The position numbers and the translations under genes were made by a program. Shown piece by piece: positions 11,455 through 21,657 of a DNA stretch of 22,156 nucleotides. The stretch covers positions 1 through 22,156 of the IMG/VR virus record IMGVR_UViG_3300023179_000558; one strand, given 5' to 3'. This stretch comes from a virus. Each line of letters opens with the position of its first letter. Within the stretch, counting starts at the first letter, position 1. The notes under the pieces are model-generated. The model had not been told where the DNA came from, made no database searches, and saw only the letters and a program-made list of their open reading frames with translations.

Positions 11455-11714
11455 TAAACTACCTTGTTCTTCAAGTACTGTTTTTTACAGGTTGAATAGA
11501 CATCCGATGGCAGCTTTTCAACAATATCGACTATTTTATTGTTAAGGCCGAATTCAAACTTATCTGTAGGTACTTCTCTAATTATCATGTCTGGTAAAGC
11601 TAGAAAATTAAAATTTTCATTTACTTTTTCCATGTATACAAGAAGCTCTCCTAGGTACTTACCGCCGGTAACCGCGTAAAGATATCTTTTTTTAGGATGC
11701 TTAAACCAACCCAT
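11454..11714 (-). CDS. Hypothetical protein, 86 residues
   Basis: I do not recognise this small protein. It begins MGWFKHPKKRYLYAVTGGKY, with a basic aromatic N terminus. A beta-like segment (GELLVYMEK) and a short Cys-containing C terminus (YSTCKKQYLKNKVV) follow. It overlaps the end of the epimerase-like gene by 14 bases, so the two are likely co-transcribed and perhaps coupled in translation. It gives no further clue to function. Confidence 0.6.
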   Translation of the reverse strand: MGWFKHPKKRYLYAVTGGKYLGELLVYMEKVNENFNFLALPDMIIREVPTDKFEFGLNNKIVDIVEKLPSDVYSTCKKQYLKNKVV

Positions 11715-12606
11715 AACTTGTACTCAATATGTTAGCGCATTTATCTAAAGAAATATTAACATCAGGAAGGCTTAATCCCATAGATGCAATTTTTTCTGTA
11801 GATAAAACGCAATTAGATCTATTGGCTTTAAGATTTAAATTTTCTATGTCTACAAACTTCCAATTCTTGTTTATTAAATTATTTTTAGCTAAAATACTAG
11901 TAATTTCTTCTGCATCTAAAGCACCTGGATTAGTTACGTTATAAATTCCAGGATCAGATTTATATAAATGGCGTTTAATAAATTCATTTATAAAAAAAGA
12001 TAAATCGTCAATTGATGTTAAGCTATTTTTAAATTTAACCAGATTATCATAATTTAAAAGTTTAACTAACAAATTACGAGAAGAGTTGTAGCTACAAAAA
12101 GGCATTCTTATTCTTAAAGTTGTAGTAATATTATTTTGAATTAATTTTTCTGCAATGTGCTTGCATTTAGAATAAAAACTGCTTTGCGAATTAAAGAACC
12201 CAAAGTTAGGTTCATCTTCTTCTGTAAACTCTTTTTCGTACCCCGTATATATGCAGCCGCTGCTTATATTAATTAACCAGCATTTATTTTTGCTACAAAA
12301 ATTACTAAGATATACCGGTAACCCGACATTATATTCAAAGCATTCAGCTTTTTTAAGCTCACACTGATCTACATTAGGTATGCCAGTAAACCCAGAACAA
12401 TTAATAATAATATTTTCAGAATATGTGCCGTCATAAAAATGACCTGTTTCTCTTATAAATTTTTTTAATTTAATTTCATCAAAATAATCTACACGTTCCC
12501 TTGAAATATTGTACAGGTTTATGCTGTTATCTGAATTATGTTCTTTTAAAAAATTATAAAGATGAGTACCTATAAAACCGCGTCCTAAAATAATAATATT
12601 AGTCAC
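11701..12606 (-). CDS. NAD(P)-dependent sugar epimerase/reductase (RmlD-like extended SDR)
   Basis: This 301-residue protein belongs to the extended short-chain dehydrogenase/reductase family. It has the nucleotide-binding GRGFIG at 8-13 and the serine region ISSGCIY at about 114-120. The catalytic YxxxK is Y145/K149 (YSKCK). A length of about 300 and the segment CSGFTGIPNVDQCE resemble dTDP-4-dehydrorhamnose reductases, which make the final sugar nucleotide in rhamnose synthesis. The substrate is not proven. It may supply sugars used by the two glycosyltransferases in the window, or alter host surface sugars. The start is GTG at 12606, and codon use is AT-rich like its neighbours. Confidence 0.85.
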   Translation of the reverse strand: MTNIIILGRGFIGTHLYNFLKEHNSDNSINLYNISRERVDYFDEIKLKKFIRETGHFYDGTYSENIIINCSGFTGIPNVDQCELKKAECFEYNVGLPVYLSNFCSKNKCWLINISSGCIYTGYEKEFTEEDEPNFGFFNSQSSFYSKCKHIAEKLIQNNITTTLRIRMPFCSYNSSRNLLVKLLNYDNLVKFKNSLTSIDDLSFFINEFIKRHLYKSDPGIYNVTNPGALDAEEITSILAKNNLINKNWKFVDIENLNLKANRSNCVLSTEKIASMGLSLPDVNISLDKCANILSTSYGLV

Positions 12607-17875: not shown

Positions 17876-18553
17876 TCAGATACTACTACTGTATTCAGAT
17901 AAAAACTTCTCCTGGCTAGATGTAAATCTTTCGTCGTTTACATTTAGCAAACCAGGGGAAGCATGCATTACCCAAATAGGGGCTACACCTAATTTTAATC
18001 GCTTATTGTTAGCGTCTATACTACTCGCTATGTCATAGTGATGAAATTCGTAATTTTCATTAAATCTCCATTTAACTGAGTTAACTTTTCTTACATCGAT
18101 AGATAAAAACAGCCCGTCGAGTATAGCCACTCTTGAGGGAGCTGGACCAAAATTAGTAACCATTATCTGATCTTTACTGCAGGGATGCGCTACTGCTCCT
18201 CTAAGATTACCACTATTAAACCCACCGCACATTAAATGCCATAACGCTGGTGCTTTTATAGTAGGATTAATACCGCCTGCTAGCCCCACTATATCATAAG
18301 CAATGTGAGCTCTTTGAATTTTTTCAGCAATTCTTAAATCATCAAGAAACACATCGTCATGTACAAATATAACATAATCAAAATCTTTCCCTTTTGAATT
18401 TAAAAATTCGTTATAACATTTACTTAACCCTAGTGTATTATTTTCTTTGTAATGAAAAGTAATGGAAGGGTCAAGTAATAACGGCTGAATGCTTTTGTTT
18501 AAAAAAGTAGATCCTATATCTCCTCTAGTTACTGAATATATTGCAATTTTCAT
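17876..18553 (-). CDS. Glycosyltransferase (GT-A fold, family uncertain)
   Basis: This 225-residue protein is a likely nucleotide-sugar transferase. It starts MKIAIYSVTRGD, followed by an acceptor-like helix region LGLSKCYNEFLN. Residues 61-68 (VIFVHDDV) form a HDD metal-binding site like the DxD of GT-A enzymes. Later features are GLFLSID (147-153) and HHYDIASSID (171-180), which look like the catalytic base region. Its ATG overlaps the stop of the amidotransferase gene (ATGA), so the two are coupled. Target options are phage DNA bases, virion proteins or host surface sugars; the sequence does not decide. Confidence 0.8.
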   Translation of the reverse strand: MKIAIYSVTRGDIGSTFLNKSIQPLLLDPSITFHYKENNTLGLSKCYNEFLNSKGKDFDYVIFVHDDVFLDDLRIAEKIQRAHIAYDIVGLAGGINPTIKAPALWHLMCGGFNSGNLRGAVAHPCSKDQIMVTNFGPAPSRVAILDGLFLSIDVRKVNSVKWRFNENYEFHHYDIASSIDANNKRLKLGVAPIWVMHASPGLLNVNDERFTSSQEKFLSEYSSSI

Positions 18554-19227
18554 GTAAAGAATGGTGAGTTTTTCTTAAAACGACCTACACTTGTTATGCC
18601 TTCTTTTGTTAACAAGTACAACAGCCCTTCTTCTAATTCAACGTACCCATCTTCTTTTAGCGAAGAAAACGAATTGTTTAAAAAATCAGCATAAAGAGTA
18701 CTGCCTGATCGCGCTAGGTATATATTATTAGTCTGTTGATGAAAAATCCATAATCCAAATGTACCTTTCAAGGAAGAAAGTGCTTTAACTATAGAAGCTA
18801 TTTCATCATCACTATCTTTATAATATAGTTCAATTAAAGGCGCTATAACTGATGAATCTACAATATTGTAAGTTTTTTTACCTACTAGCTTTTTAAGCTC
18901 TTTATCGTTCGTAAGAACGCCATTATGTGCTATTATCCAGTCTCTGCATTGGAAGGGGTGGGAGGTGTCTTTACTATAAGTTCTTTGAGCAGACGTAGGC
19001 GCTTGTGTGTGTCCAAGATAGTATTGAAAATCGTTTATCTTCTTTTTTTTCTTCTCGTATTCGATTACAAGTGAATTAGATAAAGGTGCTATGCCTTGAC
19101 TCTTTAAAATAGCGTGTAACTTATTGTCAACCAATAGGCCGCCATAAGAAAATGTCCCTCTTTTCTTATTAGACTTGTAGAGCTTCATGTATGATGAAAA
19201 CTCTTTAGAACCAAATATGCCGCAAAT
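18550..19227 (-). CDS. Class II glutamine amidotransferase, start at AUU
   Basis: This 225-residue stand-alone class II glutaminase domain releases ammonia from glutamine with an N-terminal cysteine. Read from ATT at 19227 it begins M-C-G-I-F-G, the classical start with Cys2 as nucleophile. Other family signatures are RGTFSYGG at 23-30, GHTQAPT at 72-78, HPF at 90-92, HNG at 101-103 and ARSGSTLY near 172-179. The next ATG (19188) would lose the nucleophile. Upstream of ATT only GAG-GTA-ATA-ACT separate it from an in-frame TAG, so no ATG, GTG or TTG start is available. AGGAGG lies 8 bases upstream of ATT. There is no synthase domain. It may feed ammonia to the linked queC product or to a sugar aminotransfer step; the acceptor is unknown. 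Confidence 0.85.
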   Translation of the reverse strand: MCGIFGSKEFSSYMKLYKSNKKRGTFSYGGLLVDNKLHAILKSQGIAPLSNSLVIEYEKKKKKINDFQYYLGHTQAPTSAQRTYSKDTSHPFQCRDWIIAHNGVLTNDKELKKLVGKKTYNIVDSSVIAPLIELYYKDSDDEIASIVKALSSLKGTFGLWIFHQQTNNIYLARSGSTLYADFLNNSFSSLKEDGYVELEEGLLYLLTKEGITSVGRFKKNSPFFT

Positions 19228-19234
19228 AGTTATT

Positions 19235-19241
19235 ACCTCCT
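19235..19241 (-). promoter_or_regulatory. Strong Shine-Dalgarno AGGAGGT setting the AUU start
   Basis: On the minus strand AGGAGGT lies before the amidotransferase gene, with the core AGGAGG (19241-19236) 8 bases from ATT. It is the best Shine-Dalgarno sequence in the window. An optimal site placed for an ATT codon, and much too far (47 bases) from the first ATG, is the main support for the AUU start. Confidence 0.85.
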
Positions 19242-19245
19242 ATTT

Positions 19246-19273
19246 ATTATAATAAAAAGAATAAATATTTCAA
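19246..19273 (-). promoter_or_regulatory. Possible sigma70-type promoter TTGAAA-16-TATAAT
   Basis: On the minus strand TTGAAA (19273-19268) and TATAAT (19251-19246) are separated by 16 bases. This resembles a host-type early promoter for the amidotransferase-glycosyltransferase-helicase genes. The expected start, about 7 bases after TATAAT, would fall inside the Shine-Dalgarno sequence, which is a problem unless initiation occurs earlier. The region is AT-rich, so chance is possible. It overlaps the plus-strand late-type motif of the next gene. Confidence 0.35.
19261..19267 (+). promoter_or_regulatory. Late-promoter-like motif ATAAATA before the 305-residue gene
   Basis: ATAAATA is followed by TTTCAAC (7 bases) and the ATG at 19275, with no Shine-Dalgarno sequence. 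It lies back-to-back with the possible early promoter of the divergent amidotransferase gene. Confidence 0.5.
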
Positions 19274-19274
19274 C

Positions 19275-20192
19275 ATGAATAAGGATTGTAAGTATATATT
19301 TGAAGCATATACCTCTAGAAAAAAGATAGTTTCAGAAGCACCTATATACGCTGACGACTTAGGATATACAGGGGATATCGAAAAAGCACCTGGCGGTGGC
19401 TATGGAATTGGCAAAGCTGCAGCAAGGGAAGGTAAATCTAAGACAGAAATTGGTAATAAAATTTTAGAACTAGTAAGAACAAAACTATTTAAACCTGCTG
19501 CTCATACAGTAGATGGTAAAGAATATCAATTATATTACCCGGGTAGTAAGATGAAATTTAGAGCAGAATTAGAAGCGTTAATCAAAAAAGAGCTTAACTT
19601 AGGTGGAACAGAGGCAAGATATACTGCAAGAGTAGTAGATAACTTATTAAATGTATTGAGAGTTGATGTAGAAGGTGGTGCCGCTGCAAACCCTTCGCAA
19701 GTTAAAAAAGCTGTAGCTGCTGGGGTTGAGGGTAAGTCTATTGCTTCTGGTGAACCTGCAGGGCCAGAGGCTGTTCCTGCTACACCAGCAGCTCCTGCTC
19801 CAAATTCATTTGTAAAAACTTTTGCTAAGTTTATTCCTGAATATGCAAGGATTTTTGCAGAGCTTCCAGATGAAGTTACTATTAATCATGGCGAAGATTT
19901 TTATGATTCTAAAGAATTTAAGCAAGAAGTTGTAGATGCTATTACAAAAGTCTATGATGAAAATAAAGCGAAGGATAAGGAGTATGTAACAGATTTTATT
20001 GATTCGGTAAAATATAAAAACGGGTATATACCTTCTGCAGAAGCTAAGGAAAAAGAAGGTGAAGGTACTGGTGAAGCGCCTATAGTAGATGAATATCCTG
20101 AAGATGATGATGTAACAGGAGAGCTGAGATCAATGGGAGCAATTGGTGGGCGACGCGGATATGATGCAGGTGGATTTAGTTACGGAGACTAA
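19275..20192 (+). CDS. Putative virion protein with T4-like capsid-targeting N terminus
   Basis: This 305-residue protein is not a family I know. It begins MNKDCKYIFEAYT, and IFE-A at residues 8-11 fits the (I/L)-x-E cleavage site of T4 prohead protease at the same distance from the N terminus as in T4 IPIII (MKTYQEFIAE-A). Further parts are a Gly-rich loop (39-47), a helical basic domain (about 55-130), an Ala/Pro/Gly linker (157-177), a second domain (178-250), an acidic stretch (260-285) and a Gly-rich tail. It is a single plus-strand gene inside the minus-strand replication region. It overlaps the convergent glycosyltransferase gene by 4 bases. A head-interior protein is inferred from the N terminus and the late motif. 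Confidence 0.65.
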   Translation: MNKDCKYIFEAYTSRKKIVSEAPIYADDLGYTGDIEKAPGGGYGIGKAAAREGKSKTEIGNKILELVRTKLFKPAAHTVDGKEYQLYYPGSKMKFRAELEALIKKELNLGGTEARYTARVVDNLLNVLRVDVEGGAAANPSQVKKAVAAGVEGKSIASGEPAGPEAVPATPAAPAPNSFVKTFAKFIPEYARIFAELPDEVTINHGEDFYDSKEFKQEVVDAITKVYDENKAKDKEYVTDFIDSVKYKNGYIPSAEAKEKEGEGTGEAPIVDEYPEDDDVTGELRSMGAIGGRRGYDAGGFSYGD

Positions 20193-20914
20193 ACATATTT
20201 TTTAAGTTTTTGAAAAAACTGTTCCCAAGGATATAATTTTGGTTCATCTTTAAGTTGAATTCTGCCTAGTTGGTTATCATTAAGTTTATACTTTTTTTCT
20301 CTATATTTCACATTAAAGGCGCTATATTTTTCAGGTGTACCTACGGGGTCAATAAGATCTAATTTAATACTAGATGTTAAGTGTCTAAGAGTTTTAATAT
20401 TAAATGTGGGTACTTTTTTATTCATATTTCTAACATATTTGGAATACATATCATTATCTTCTTCCCCAAACCCTAAAAATCTTTCGTCAAAGTAATTCAT
20501 TTTAAAAGCGAAGCTTTTTTTAATTAAAAAATGAGGCCAGTTGTTATTAATCAAAATTAAATCTTCTAATTGTTTTAATGCTTCTTCAATTTCTATAAAT
20601 ATGTTGCCTGTAAAATCTACATCATCATTCAAAACAAGTAAATTTTCAGTTTTAGAGTGTATTATAAGAGTGTTCCATAATTTAGCGCACCCTCGCATTT
20701 CTGAAAAATAAACTGGAAGAATATTTTTATAACTACTAAAAAAATTAAGCGATTCTACTCTGTATGTTTCATCAAAACTACTGTTATTTGGCCCATTTAC
20801 TGTAACAATAATTTCTGTATCGGTATGCTGTCTAATTTTGCTAATTAGGTTTTTTAAAAGTGAAAATCTCCTATCAAATGTAGTTATACCTATTGTATAT
20901 GGTATAGAGCTCAT
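20189..20914 (-). CDS. Glycosyltransferase (GT2-like, GT-A fold)
   Basis: This 241-residue protein is a family-2-like glycosyltransferase. It starts with the typical strand IPYTIGITTFDR (residues 4-15). It then has TEIIVTVNGPN, a donor-binding strand LLVLNDDVDF (92-101) with the acidic DDVD metal site, and GFGEEDNDMYSK (148-159), the ED acceptor/catalytic motif common in GT2 enzymes. Its ATG overlaps the queC stop by ATGA, so the two are translated together and may serve one pathway, or simply share an operon. No membrane segment is visible, so it is soluble and could act on DNA or nucleotide-linked sugars in the cytoplasm. Confidence 0.82.
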   Translation of the reverse strand: MSSIPYTIGITTFDRRFSLLKNLISKIRQHTDTEIIVTVNGPNNSSFDETYRVESLNFFSSYKNILPVYFSEMRGCAKLWNTLIIHSKTENLLVLNDDVDFTGNIFIEIEEALKQLEDLILINNNWPHFLIKKSFAFKMNYFDERFLGFGEEDNDMYSKYVRNMNKKVPTFNIKTLRHLTSSIKLDLIDPVGTPEKYSAFNVKYREKKYKLNDNQLGRIQLKDEPKLYPWEQFFQKLKKYV

Positions 20915-21657
20915 ATTGATTTACAATGATATTTACTCCATGGTATATCAGTTCTTTTGTATTTAAGCGGGTCAATATAACCTGATTCTAAAAATCCTTG
21001 TATACGCAGTGAACAGGCTGTACATTCACCACAAGCCTGTTCTTCACCTTCGTAGCAGGTCCAAGTCTGACTAAAATTTACCCCGAGTTTAACACCGAGT
21101 TTAATGATTTCTTCTTTAGATTTGTCAATTAGCGGGGCCTGAACGGTAATTCTGTTTCTCCTATTAAGGGCTGATACTTTATTAATTTGCTCAAGAAATT
21201 CTTCACTCCCATCCCAAAACCCTGCAACGCTATCAGCCTGTGCAGCTCCATGAAAAACAGTACTAGCACCGTAGTTTTCTGCTATAGCGAGTGAAATGCT
21301 AAGTAACATTAGGTTTCTGTACGGTACATAGTTTACTGTCTGTGGATCACCCATCACATCTTTTGCTTTAGCAACTGCAATCTTATTATTAAGAAGTGAA
21401 GAGACTTGACAAATATCCCTAAAAAACGGTAATTTTATGTGTAAACTGTCAACCGGCATATCAAGCGATTCAATCTGAAACGCTGCACAGTTTATTTCTT
21501 TATCACGGTGCTTTTGACCATAATCATAGTTAACCGTAATTATTCTATCATATCTGCTTGCAGCTAGGTGTAGTAGTACGGAACTGTCCATCCCCCCTGA
21601 GATAGGGACTACTGCTTTACTCGACAGGTTCTTCTTCTGTTTGCGCTTCATTGACAT
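20911..21657 (-). CDS. queC: 7-cyano-7-deazaguanine (preQ0) synthase QueC
   Basis: This 248-residue protein converts 7-carboxy-7-deazaguanine to preQ0, using ATP and ammonia, in the cytoplasm. It has the PP-loop SGGMDSS at 20-26, the region TVNYVPYRNLMLLS at 107-120, and zinc-binding cysteines at 201, 209, 212 and 215 (C-x7-CGEC-x2-C). The N terminus has a basic extension (MSMKRKQKKNLSSK) before the usual KAVVPISGG start. It overlaps the uvsX-like gene by 41 bases, and a second ATG 6 bases in is equally plausible. Phages use preQ0 for DNA base modification that blocks host restriction. The companion enzymes QueD, QueE, FolE and DpdA are not in this window. Confidence 0.93.
   Translation of the reverse strand: MSMKRKQKKNLSSKAVVPISGGMDSSVLLHLAASRYDRIITVNYDYGQKHRDKEINCAAFQIESLDMPVDSLHIKLPFFRDICQVSSLLNNKIAVAKAKDVMGDPQTVNYVPYRNLMLLSISLAIAENYGASTVFHGAAQADSVAGFWDGSEEFLEQINKVSALNRRNRITVQAPLIDKSKEEIIKLGVKLGVNFSQTWTCYEGEEQACGECTACSLRIQGFLESGYIDPLKYKRTDIPWSKYHCKSI

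Follow-up and report, generated by a model that had tools for sequence, protein, structure and literature searches.

The window analysed in this study is a stretch of 22,156 nucleotides of viral DNA (positions 1 to 22,156 of IMG/VR record IMGVR_UViG_3300023179_000558). Its minus strand carries a gene, here called gat, for a predicted class II (Ntn) glutamine amidotransferase (GAT), the frame of which opens with ATT. This raises the question of whether AUU is the true start codon of gat and, if so, whether such a start is an accident of one genome or a signal that these phages maintain.

Start site and product of gat

The gat gene occupies 18550..19227 on the minus strand and comprises 225 codons including the AUU start at 19225..19227. 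From 19227, it reads ATT TGC GGC ATA TTT GGT, with the Cys2 codon TGC (19222-19224, minus strand) directly after the AUU. A Shine-Dalgarno (SD) sequence, AGGAGG, is located at 19236..19241 on the same strand, 8 nt (TAATAACT) ahead of the ATT. An in-frame TAG (19240..19242, minus strand) lies five codons 5' of the AUU and excludes an N-terminal extension; the in-frame codons leading into the start are TAG GAG GTA ATA ACT ATT. The first ATG inside the gene (19188-19186) is 47 nt past the SD, and mechanical ORF calling, which starts at this ATG, returns a product of 212 aa (18550..19188) that has lost the Cys. An earlier note on this DNA had proposed an AUU-Cys-Gly-Ile-Phe-Gly opening at 19227, the absence of ATG, GTG and TTG between the TAG and the ATT, AGGAGG 8 nt upstream and the cost of the catalytic Cys at the first ATG, and the window sequence bears out all of these readings. 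The expectation in the same note that gene callers would truncate the protein also holds for the family described below, in which 39 of the 46 full-length AUU members lose at least 30 residues at the first downstream ATG, GTG or TTG.

Class II amidotransferases need their catalytic Cys at the N terminus, and in GAT a Cys directly follows the initiator Met only if AUU is the start. The protein matched the Pfam families GATase_6 (PF13522, 6.5e-9) and GATase_7 (PF13537, 2.8e-7), both above cut-off. Its AlphaFold model (pLDDT 94) matched the glutaminase domains of GlmS, PurF and EgtC in a Foldseek search (E = 5.6e-13 to GlmS), and the best match among viral models was the deazaguanine synthase of phage Vid5. 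C2, N102-G103 and D124 are invariant in an alignment of 74 gat homologues, and the reading frame is open in all family members. By profile, predicted fold and conserved residues, the gat product is a class II (Ntn) glutamine amidotransferase, although glutamine hydrolysis itself is inferred.

The invariant residues, the open frames and the confident structure model also speak against a dead gene. That gat is a pseudogene, that the ATT is a base error or that translation starts elsewhere, at the ATG at 19188 chosen by standard ORF calling or at an ATA two codons upstream of the AUU, can practically be discounted. The nearest relative, on an independent contig (L002; 87% amino acid identity), keeps the ATT, the SD and the TAG and has CTA in place of the internal ATG of the window; therefore, the ATT is neither chance nor a base error, and the internal ATG was rejected as the start. 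The upstream ATA is not conserved. A recoded TAG that would extend the frame upstream was also rejected: no ATG, GTG or TTG is present between the TAG and the previous in-frame TGA, and other members carry TAA or TGA at other positions. The earlier note had named two findings that would refute its reading, and neither materialized: an assembly or base error is ruled out by the many independent contigs with ATT, and the internal Met is not conserved, whereas Cys2 is conserved throughout. The comparison of homologues that it recommended, for the same codon and an MCG start, revealed ATT in 47 distinct genes down to approximately 40% protein identity. Because Cys2 is found in all members, an upstream stop in most and AUU in 47 genes, and because the internal Met is unconserved, the support for AUU as the true start of gat is close to the strongest that sequence alone can give.

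Start codons and SD sequences in the gat family

Homologues of gat were collected from IMG/VR contigs in two ways. A search of viral contigs with the DNA pattern SD+ATT+TGYGGNATHTTYGG, which inherently favours AUU members, matched 37 contigs, all of which represent gat homologues; further relatives were collected by peptide patterns inside the protein, away from the start. In the pooled and deduplicated set of 126 distinct homologues, the codon ahead of Cys2 is ATG in 79 and ATT in 47, and no ATA, ATC, CTG or any other start was found. This 47:79 proportion is influenced by the ATT-favouring search; the test for an association between codon and SD covered every member. The hosts are unidentified, and an ordinary anti-SD and an ordinary IF3 were assumed for them.

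A strong SD (anti-SD pairing dG of -8 kcal/mol or below) precedes all 47 ATT genes, in which dG ranges from -8.7 to -13.7 kcal/mol, but only 2 of the 79 ATG genes (Fisher p about 1e-32). The median anti-SD energy is -11.6 kcal/mol for the ATT genes versus 0.8 kcal/mol for the ATG genes. Neither the raw Fisher nor the raw Mann-Whitney p-values account for shared ancestry, and they do not measure how strong the evidence is. The two ATG exceptions (L165 and L172) have moderately strong SDs at long spacing, 58 of the 79 ATG genes lack an SD of 3 nt or more, and 19 distinct members added by two later scans all start with ATG, none of them behind a strong SD. The Ile4 codon of the 47 ATT genes varies (ATA in 38 and ATT in 9), unlike their invariant ATT start triplet; therefore, ATT is not merely the preferred Ile codon. 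The end of GGAGG lies 8-10 nt from the ATT in 43 of these 47 genes, a typical SD spacing. Both sequence features of starts of the infC, pcnB and sigR type, namely a conserved non-canonical codon and a strong SD at normal spacing, are present.

In the window, gat is separated by an intergenic space of only 47 bp from a divergent gene of unknown function (305 aa; 19275..20192, plus strand), which is next to gat in most loci and has no Pfam or PHROG match. A T4-type late-promoter-like motif of this gene, GAATAAATA, is located at 19259..19267 on the plus strand, 7 nt before its ATG at 19275. On the gat side, we read a TATAAT -10-like box (19246..19251, minus strand) and infer a TTGAAA -35-like hexamer (19268..19273, minus strand) 16 nt from it; the transcription start has not been mapped. 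The position of the -10 box would set the 5' end of the gat mRNA at or within the SD and leave a very short leader. Since both promoters fall inside this small space, the ATT/AGGAGG block could be conceived of as an operator or as part of the divergent promoter. We consider such a DNA-level constraint very improbable, because the block is missing from AUG relatives that share the divergent gene and its late-promoter motif, because the codons around the ATT vary and because the distance between GGAGG and ATT is that expected of an SD.

Similar -10 boxes are found across the family. In 69 of the 79 ATG genes, the end of an exact TATAAT is located 3-10 nt ahead of the ATG, and the transcripts of these relatives are therefore inferred, without RNA data, to have no leader or almost none. 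In 26 of the 47 AUU members, the box ends 18-23 nt ahead of the ATT, and their transcripts would therefore begin at about the SD. In each of the 42 AUU loci with sufficient flanking sequence, the upstream gene is divergent; gat thus heads its transcript, and the idea that AUU is an operon-internal feature was rejected.

Outside the gat family, strong SDs are seldom found in these loci: an SD of at least 5 nt precedes only 20 of the 570 other unambiguous ATG genes, and no other gene there has an ATT start behind a strong SD. The T4-type late-promoter motif NATAAATA is located 5-11 nt before the ATG in 75 of 103 promoter-proximal non-GAT genes; given this placement, leaderless late transcripts may be the rule in these phages. 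Because leaderless-like starts are common in these phages, the leaderless AUG represents the background and AUU with an SD the special, repeatedly evolved state. The same fact is a caveat: SD-less, leaderless-like AUG starts are so widespread that the AUG members of the gat family need not be under special selection.

Two further explanations of the AUU were rejected. A constraint common to all amidotransferases is not supported, since other amidotransferase families in viral contigs use ATG with strong SDs. A special tRNA is not supported either: some AUU phages have a tRNA(CAU), and several AUU records, which are partial contigs, have no tRNA at all. By eye, the tRNA(CAU) genes of L324 (1500-1576), L315 (1500-1572) and L310 (1341-1415) are initiator-like, with a mismatched first acceptor pair, and those of L307 and L309 resemble elongator Met or Ile2 tRNAs. 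A search of 84,980 cellular genomes with the SD+ATT pattern yielded seven matches, including one plausible amidotransferase start. A glmS-like gene in a Daviesbacteria MAG (L297, at about 5444) has an ATT behind AAGGAGG; this start is uncertain, as an in-frame ATG is present 42 codons upstream.

On a protein tree of gat (125 rows, N terminus left out), the start-codon state changes 11 times, and at least 8 of the changes are on supported branches. Among 8 independent ATG/ATT pairs, the strong SD accompanies the ATT in six, two are equal and none shows the reverse (sign test, 0.03). The leaderless-like ATG member L152 and the ATT member L170 share 94% of the 60-nt upstream region, in which L170 has a GGAGG leader inserted relative to L152; L237 (ATT) has a stronger SD than L238 and L239 (ATG). 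Gains or losses of the arrangement of AUU with an SD have thus occurred several times, a pattern which suggests that the phages deliberately throttle gat translation.

A GIY-YIG-like ORF of the homing-endonuclease type is present between gat and its divergent neighbour in L013, L162, L164, L166, L171 and L174. The 60-nt leaders of these loci, including the SD, are 92-100% identical, and yet their gat genes belong to different clades and, from group to group, mostly share only about 61-65% identity in coding DNA, which suggests leader exchange by homing-type conversion. Near-identical leaders over divergent genes beside such an ORF could mean that the AUU leader has merely spread by recombination or homing-endonuclease conversion, without any benefit of AUU itself. 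This explanation appears improbable, because at least 8 state changes are found on the tree, because the leaders of the main AUU clade differ and a GIY-YIG-like ORF is absent there and because AUU has been kept to about 40% identity although one mutation gives AUG. The best reading of the sequences is that selection maintains AUU with a strong SD as an initiation signal specific to gat, as indicated by the association of SD and ATT, the repeated switching, the rarity of SDs elsewhere and the absence of another gene with ATT and a strong SD.

Initiation at AUU and the possible role of IF3

In this reading, the strong AGGAGG would hold the 30S subunit on the very short gat leader, and the initiator fMet-tRNA would be set on the AUU despite the third-position mismatch. 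Removal of fMet would place the catalytic Cys at the N terminus of GAT. Selection would keep initiation weak, with IF3 discrimination against AUU as the likeliest agent, and gat output would depend on the balance of IF3/IF2 to ribosomes. The relatives would arrive at a similar state with an AUG placed directly at, or close to, the 5' end of a leaderless mRNA, an arrangement that IF3 also represses.

Excess IF3 in E. coli inhibits non-canonical starts, leaderless mRNAs and SD-less re-initiation (PMC2268962), and leaderless mRNA works only with AUG, AUU being IF3-repressed (PMC4611024). A leaderless AUU was not seen in the gat family, and the combination of a strong SD with AUG is, as described above, almost absent. 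These precedents explain the distribution over the four combinations of codon and leader: a leaderless AUU would not work, an SD with AUG would escape IF3 and the other two combinations, both of which occur, are of the IF3-sensitive kind. Initiation of gat is therefore probably attenuated and, by analogy with infC, probably IF3-repressed, in alternation with the leaderless AUG. IF3 control or low-level initiation, as suggested in the earlier note, is consistent with all of the findings and is strengthened by the switching to leaderless AUG, but it remains an inference without an experiment.

Among known systems, infC (under IF3 autoregulation) and pcnB of E. coli have an AUU behind a strong SD, as gat has; these AUU codons are conserved, lower initiation and are discriminated against by IF3 (PMC5472188, PMC4611024, PMC13009471). 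However, both genes are cellular and infC is autoregulatory, whereas gat is a viral enzyme gene of phages in which no IF3 gene was found (20 related records), and gat relatives alternate with leaderless AUG, unlike infC and pcnB. Among non-infC genes with demonstrated IF3 control, the closest analogue is sigR of Streptomyces, which resembles gat in its rare start, extensive SD and conservation across species, and the GUC start of which, with a AGGAGGTG SD, is IF3-repressed (PMC5472188). It differs from gat in its codon (GUC, or GUU in two species) and in being a cellular regulator, and no leaderless alternative is described in the text consulted (PMC5472188). In S. aureus, cvfC1 (AUU) and ccpN (AUA) also combine a conserved non-canonical start with an extended SD, and their output is about 10% of that with AUG in most conditions tested (PMC13009471). 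These genes are likewise cellular, in an SD-rich organism, whereas the gat phages rarely use SDs. Both sigR and cvfC1 provide experimental precedents for a weak start codon behind a strong SD.

At the same time, pcnB and cvfC1 are precedents for an AUU that simply keeps expression low (PMC13009471). Accordingly, AUU with an SD and SD-less AUG could be interchangeable weak starts for small amounts of GAT, with IF3 acting only as general machinery, the level of which is no signal. The same compensation would be expected, namely a strong SD with the weak codon and no SD with the strong one. On the other hand, GTG, TTG, ATA, ATC or a weaker SD would also do, yet none of the 126 members uses another codon; this restriction points, though only weakly, to a property particular to AUU. 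Although we regard this alternative as doubtful, low output without an IF3 signal fits nearly as well as IF3 control, and the two cannot be separated on these data.

The further idea that gat senses the host IF3 balance (or the IF3:IF2:ribosome balance) by using IF3-repressed modes and avoiding the insensitive one can be offered only tentatively. No IF3 homologue was found in 20 related phage records, and a phage-encoded IF3 was rejected on this basis; any IF3 signal would therefore come from the host.

Linkage to queC and a probable role in 7-deazaguanine modification

The gat stop codon overlaps the ATG of a glycosyltransferase-like gene (PF13712; 17876..18553, minus strand) in an ATGA sequence, and the translation of this gene may be coupled to that of gat. 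Because of this overlap, we infer that the weak start of gat may also set the level of the downstream gene, which would perhaps likewise be tied to the balance of IF3/IF2 to ribosomes. On the other side of the divergent gene, queC (20911..21657, minus strand) encodes a 7-cyano-7-deazaguanine synthase (PF06508, 5.9e-56; TIGR00364 above its cut-off). The conserved order of the locus is uvsX, queC, divergent gene, gat, glycosyltransferase-like gene and dnaB; queC is upstream of gat in 95 loci, and a glycosyltransferase-like cluster is downstream in 118 loci. The phages are T4-like (terminase, tail sheath, gp19-type tube, UvsX and DnaB), and no isolated phage with a close relative was found in INPHARED.

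In about six relatives, such as L292, queC is directly adjacent to gat on the same strand. The clade of L286, L289, L292, L293, L294 and L295 has the gene upstream of gat on the same strand instead of divergent; this gene, queC in several of them, ends 3-7 nt before gat, without an SD. The SD-less AUG right after an upstream stop in the clade with adjacent queC and gat may be a third IF3-sensitive mode.

Among the genes of the preQ0 pathway, only queC lies inside the window. In 20 larger related records, QueC was found in 20, a QueD-type PTPS in 16 and FolE in 13; a TGT/DpdA was found in none of the 20 by PF01702 or by the DpdA of phage 9g, although a divergent DpdA2-type enzyme could be missed. 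In the family of the Gat-QueC of phage 9g (PHROG_10428), the N-terminal half matches the window GAT and the C-terminal half the window QueC, and residues 1-220 of the 9g protein could be aligned with the gat family by hhalign. The Gat-QueC archaeosine synthases of 9g and Vid5 are fused in one polypeptide, whereas the window encodes GAT and QueC in two genes. GlmS-type profiles match GAT as well as or better than Gat-QueC does by sequence; the link to Gat-QueC therefore depends on gene neighbourhood and fold no less than on sequence. Because of the conserved queC locus and the likeness to the Gat half of Gat-QueC, GAT and QueC most likely act together in a 7-deazaguanine (archaeosine-type) DNA modification to which GAT contributes the ammonia; this enzyme role is inferred. 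A gene for an RmlD/epimerase-like nucleotide-sugar enzyme is located at 11701-12606 on the minus strand of the window, between the replication genes for primase and SSB; together with two glycosyltransferase-like genes, it hints at a sugar modification of DNA or of the surface.

Taken as a whole, the explanation that gat starts at AUU, is initiated weakly through IF3 discrimination and serves deazaguanine modification is reasonably likely. The family-wide pattern, the inferred leaderless relatives and the queC linkage go beyond the earlier note. The documented cases of conserved AUU starts are confined to a few cellular genes, and our search of the literature on AUU/ATT starts in phages found no viral case; the AUU of gat, the translation of which is itself inferred, thus represents a known kind of start, the IF3-discriminated rare codon, but both its setting and its pattern are new. 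Gene callers limited to ATG, GTG and TTG remove the catalytic Cys, and consequently an enzyme family beside queC is annotated as truncated or missed. With its repeated switching between AUU behind a strong SD and an apparently leaderless AUG, near-isogenic pairs included, the gat family is a natural series in which to test whether IF3 sensitivity or merely low output is under selection. If IF3 is indeed sensed, translation of a DNA-modification amidotransferase would be tied to the growth state or to the stage of infection.
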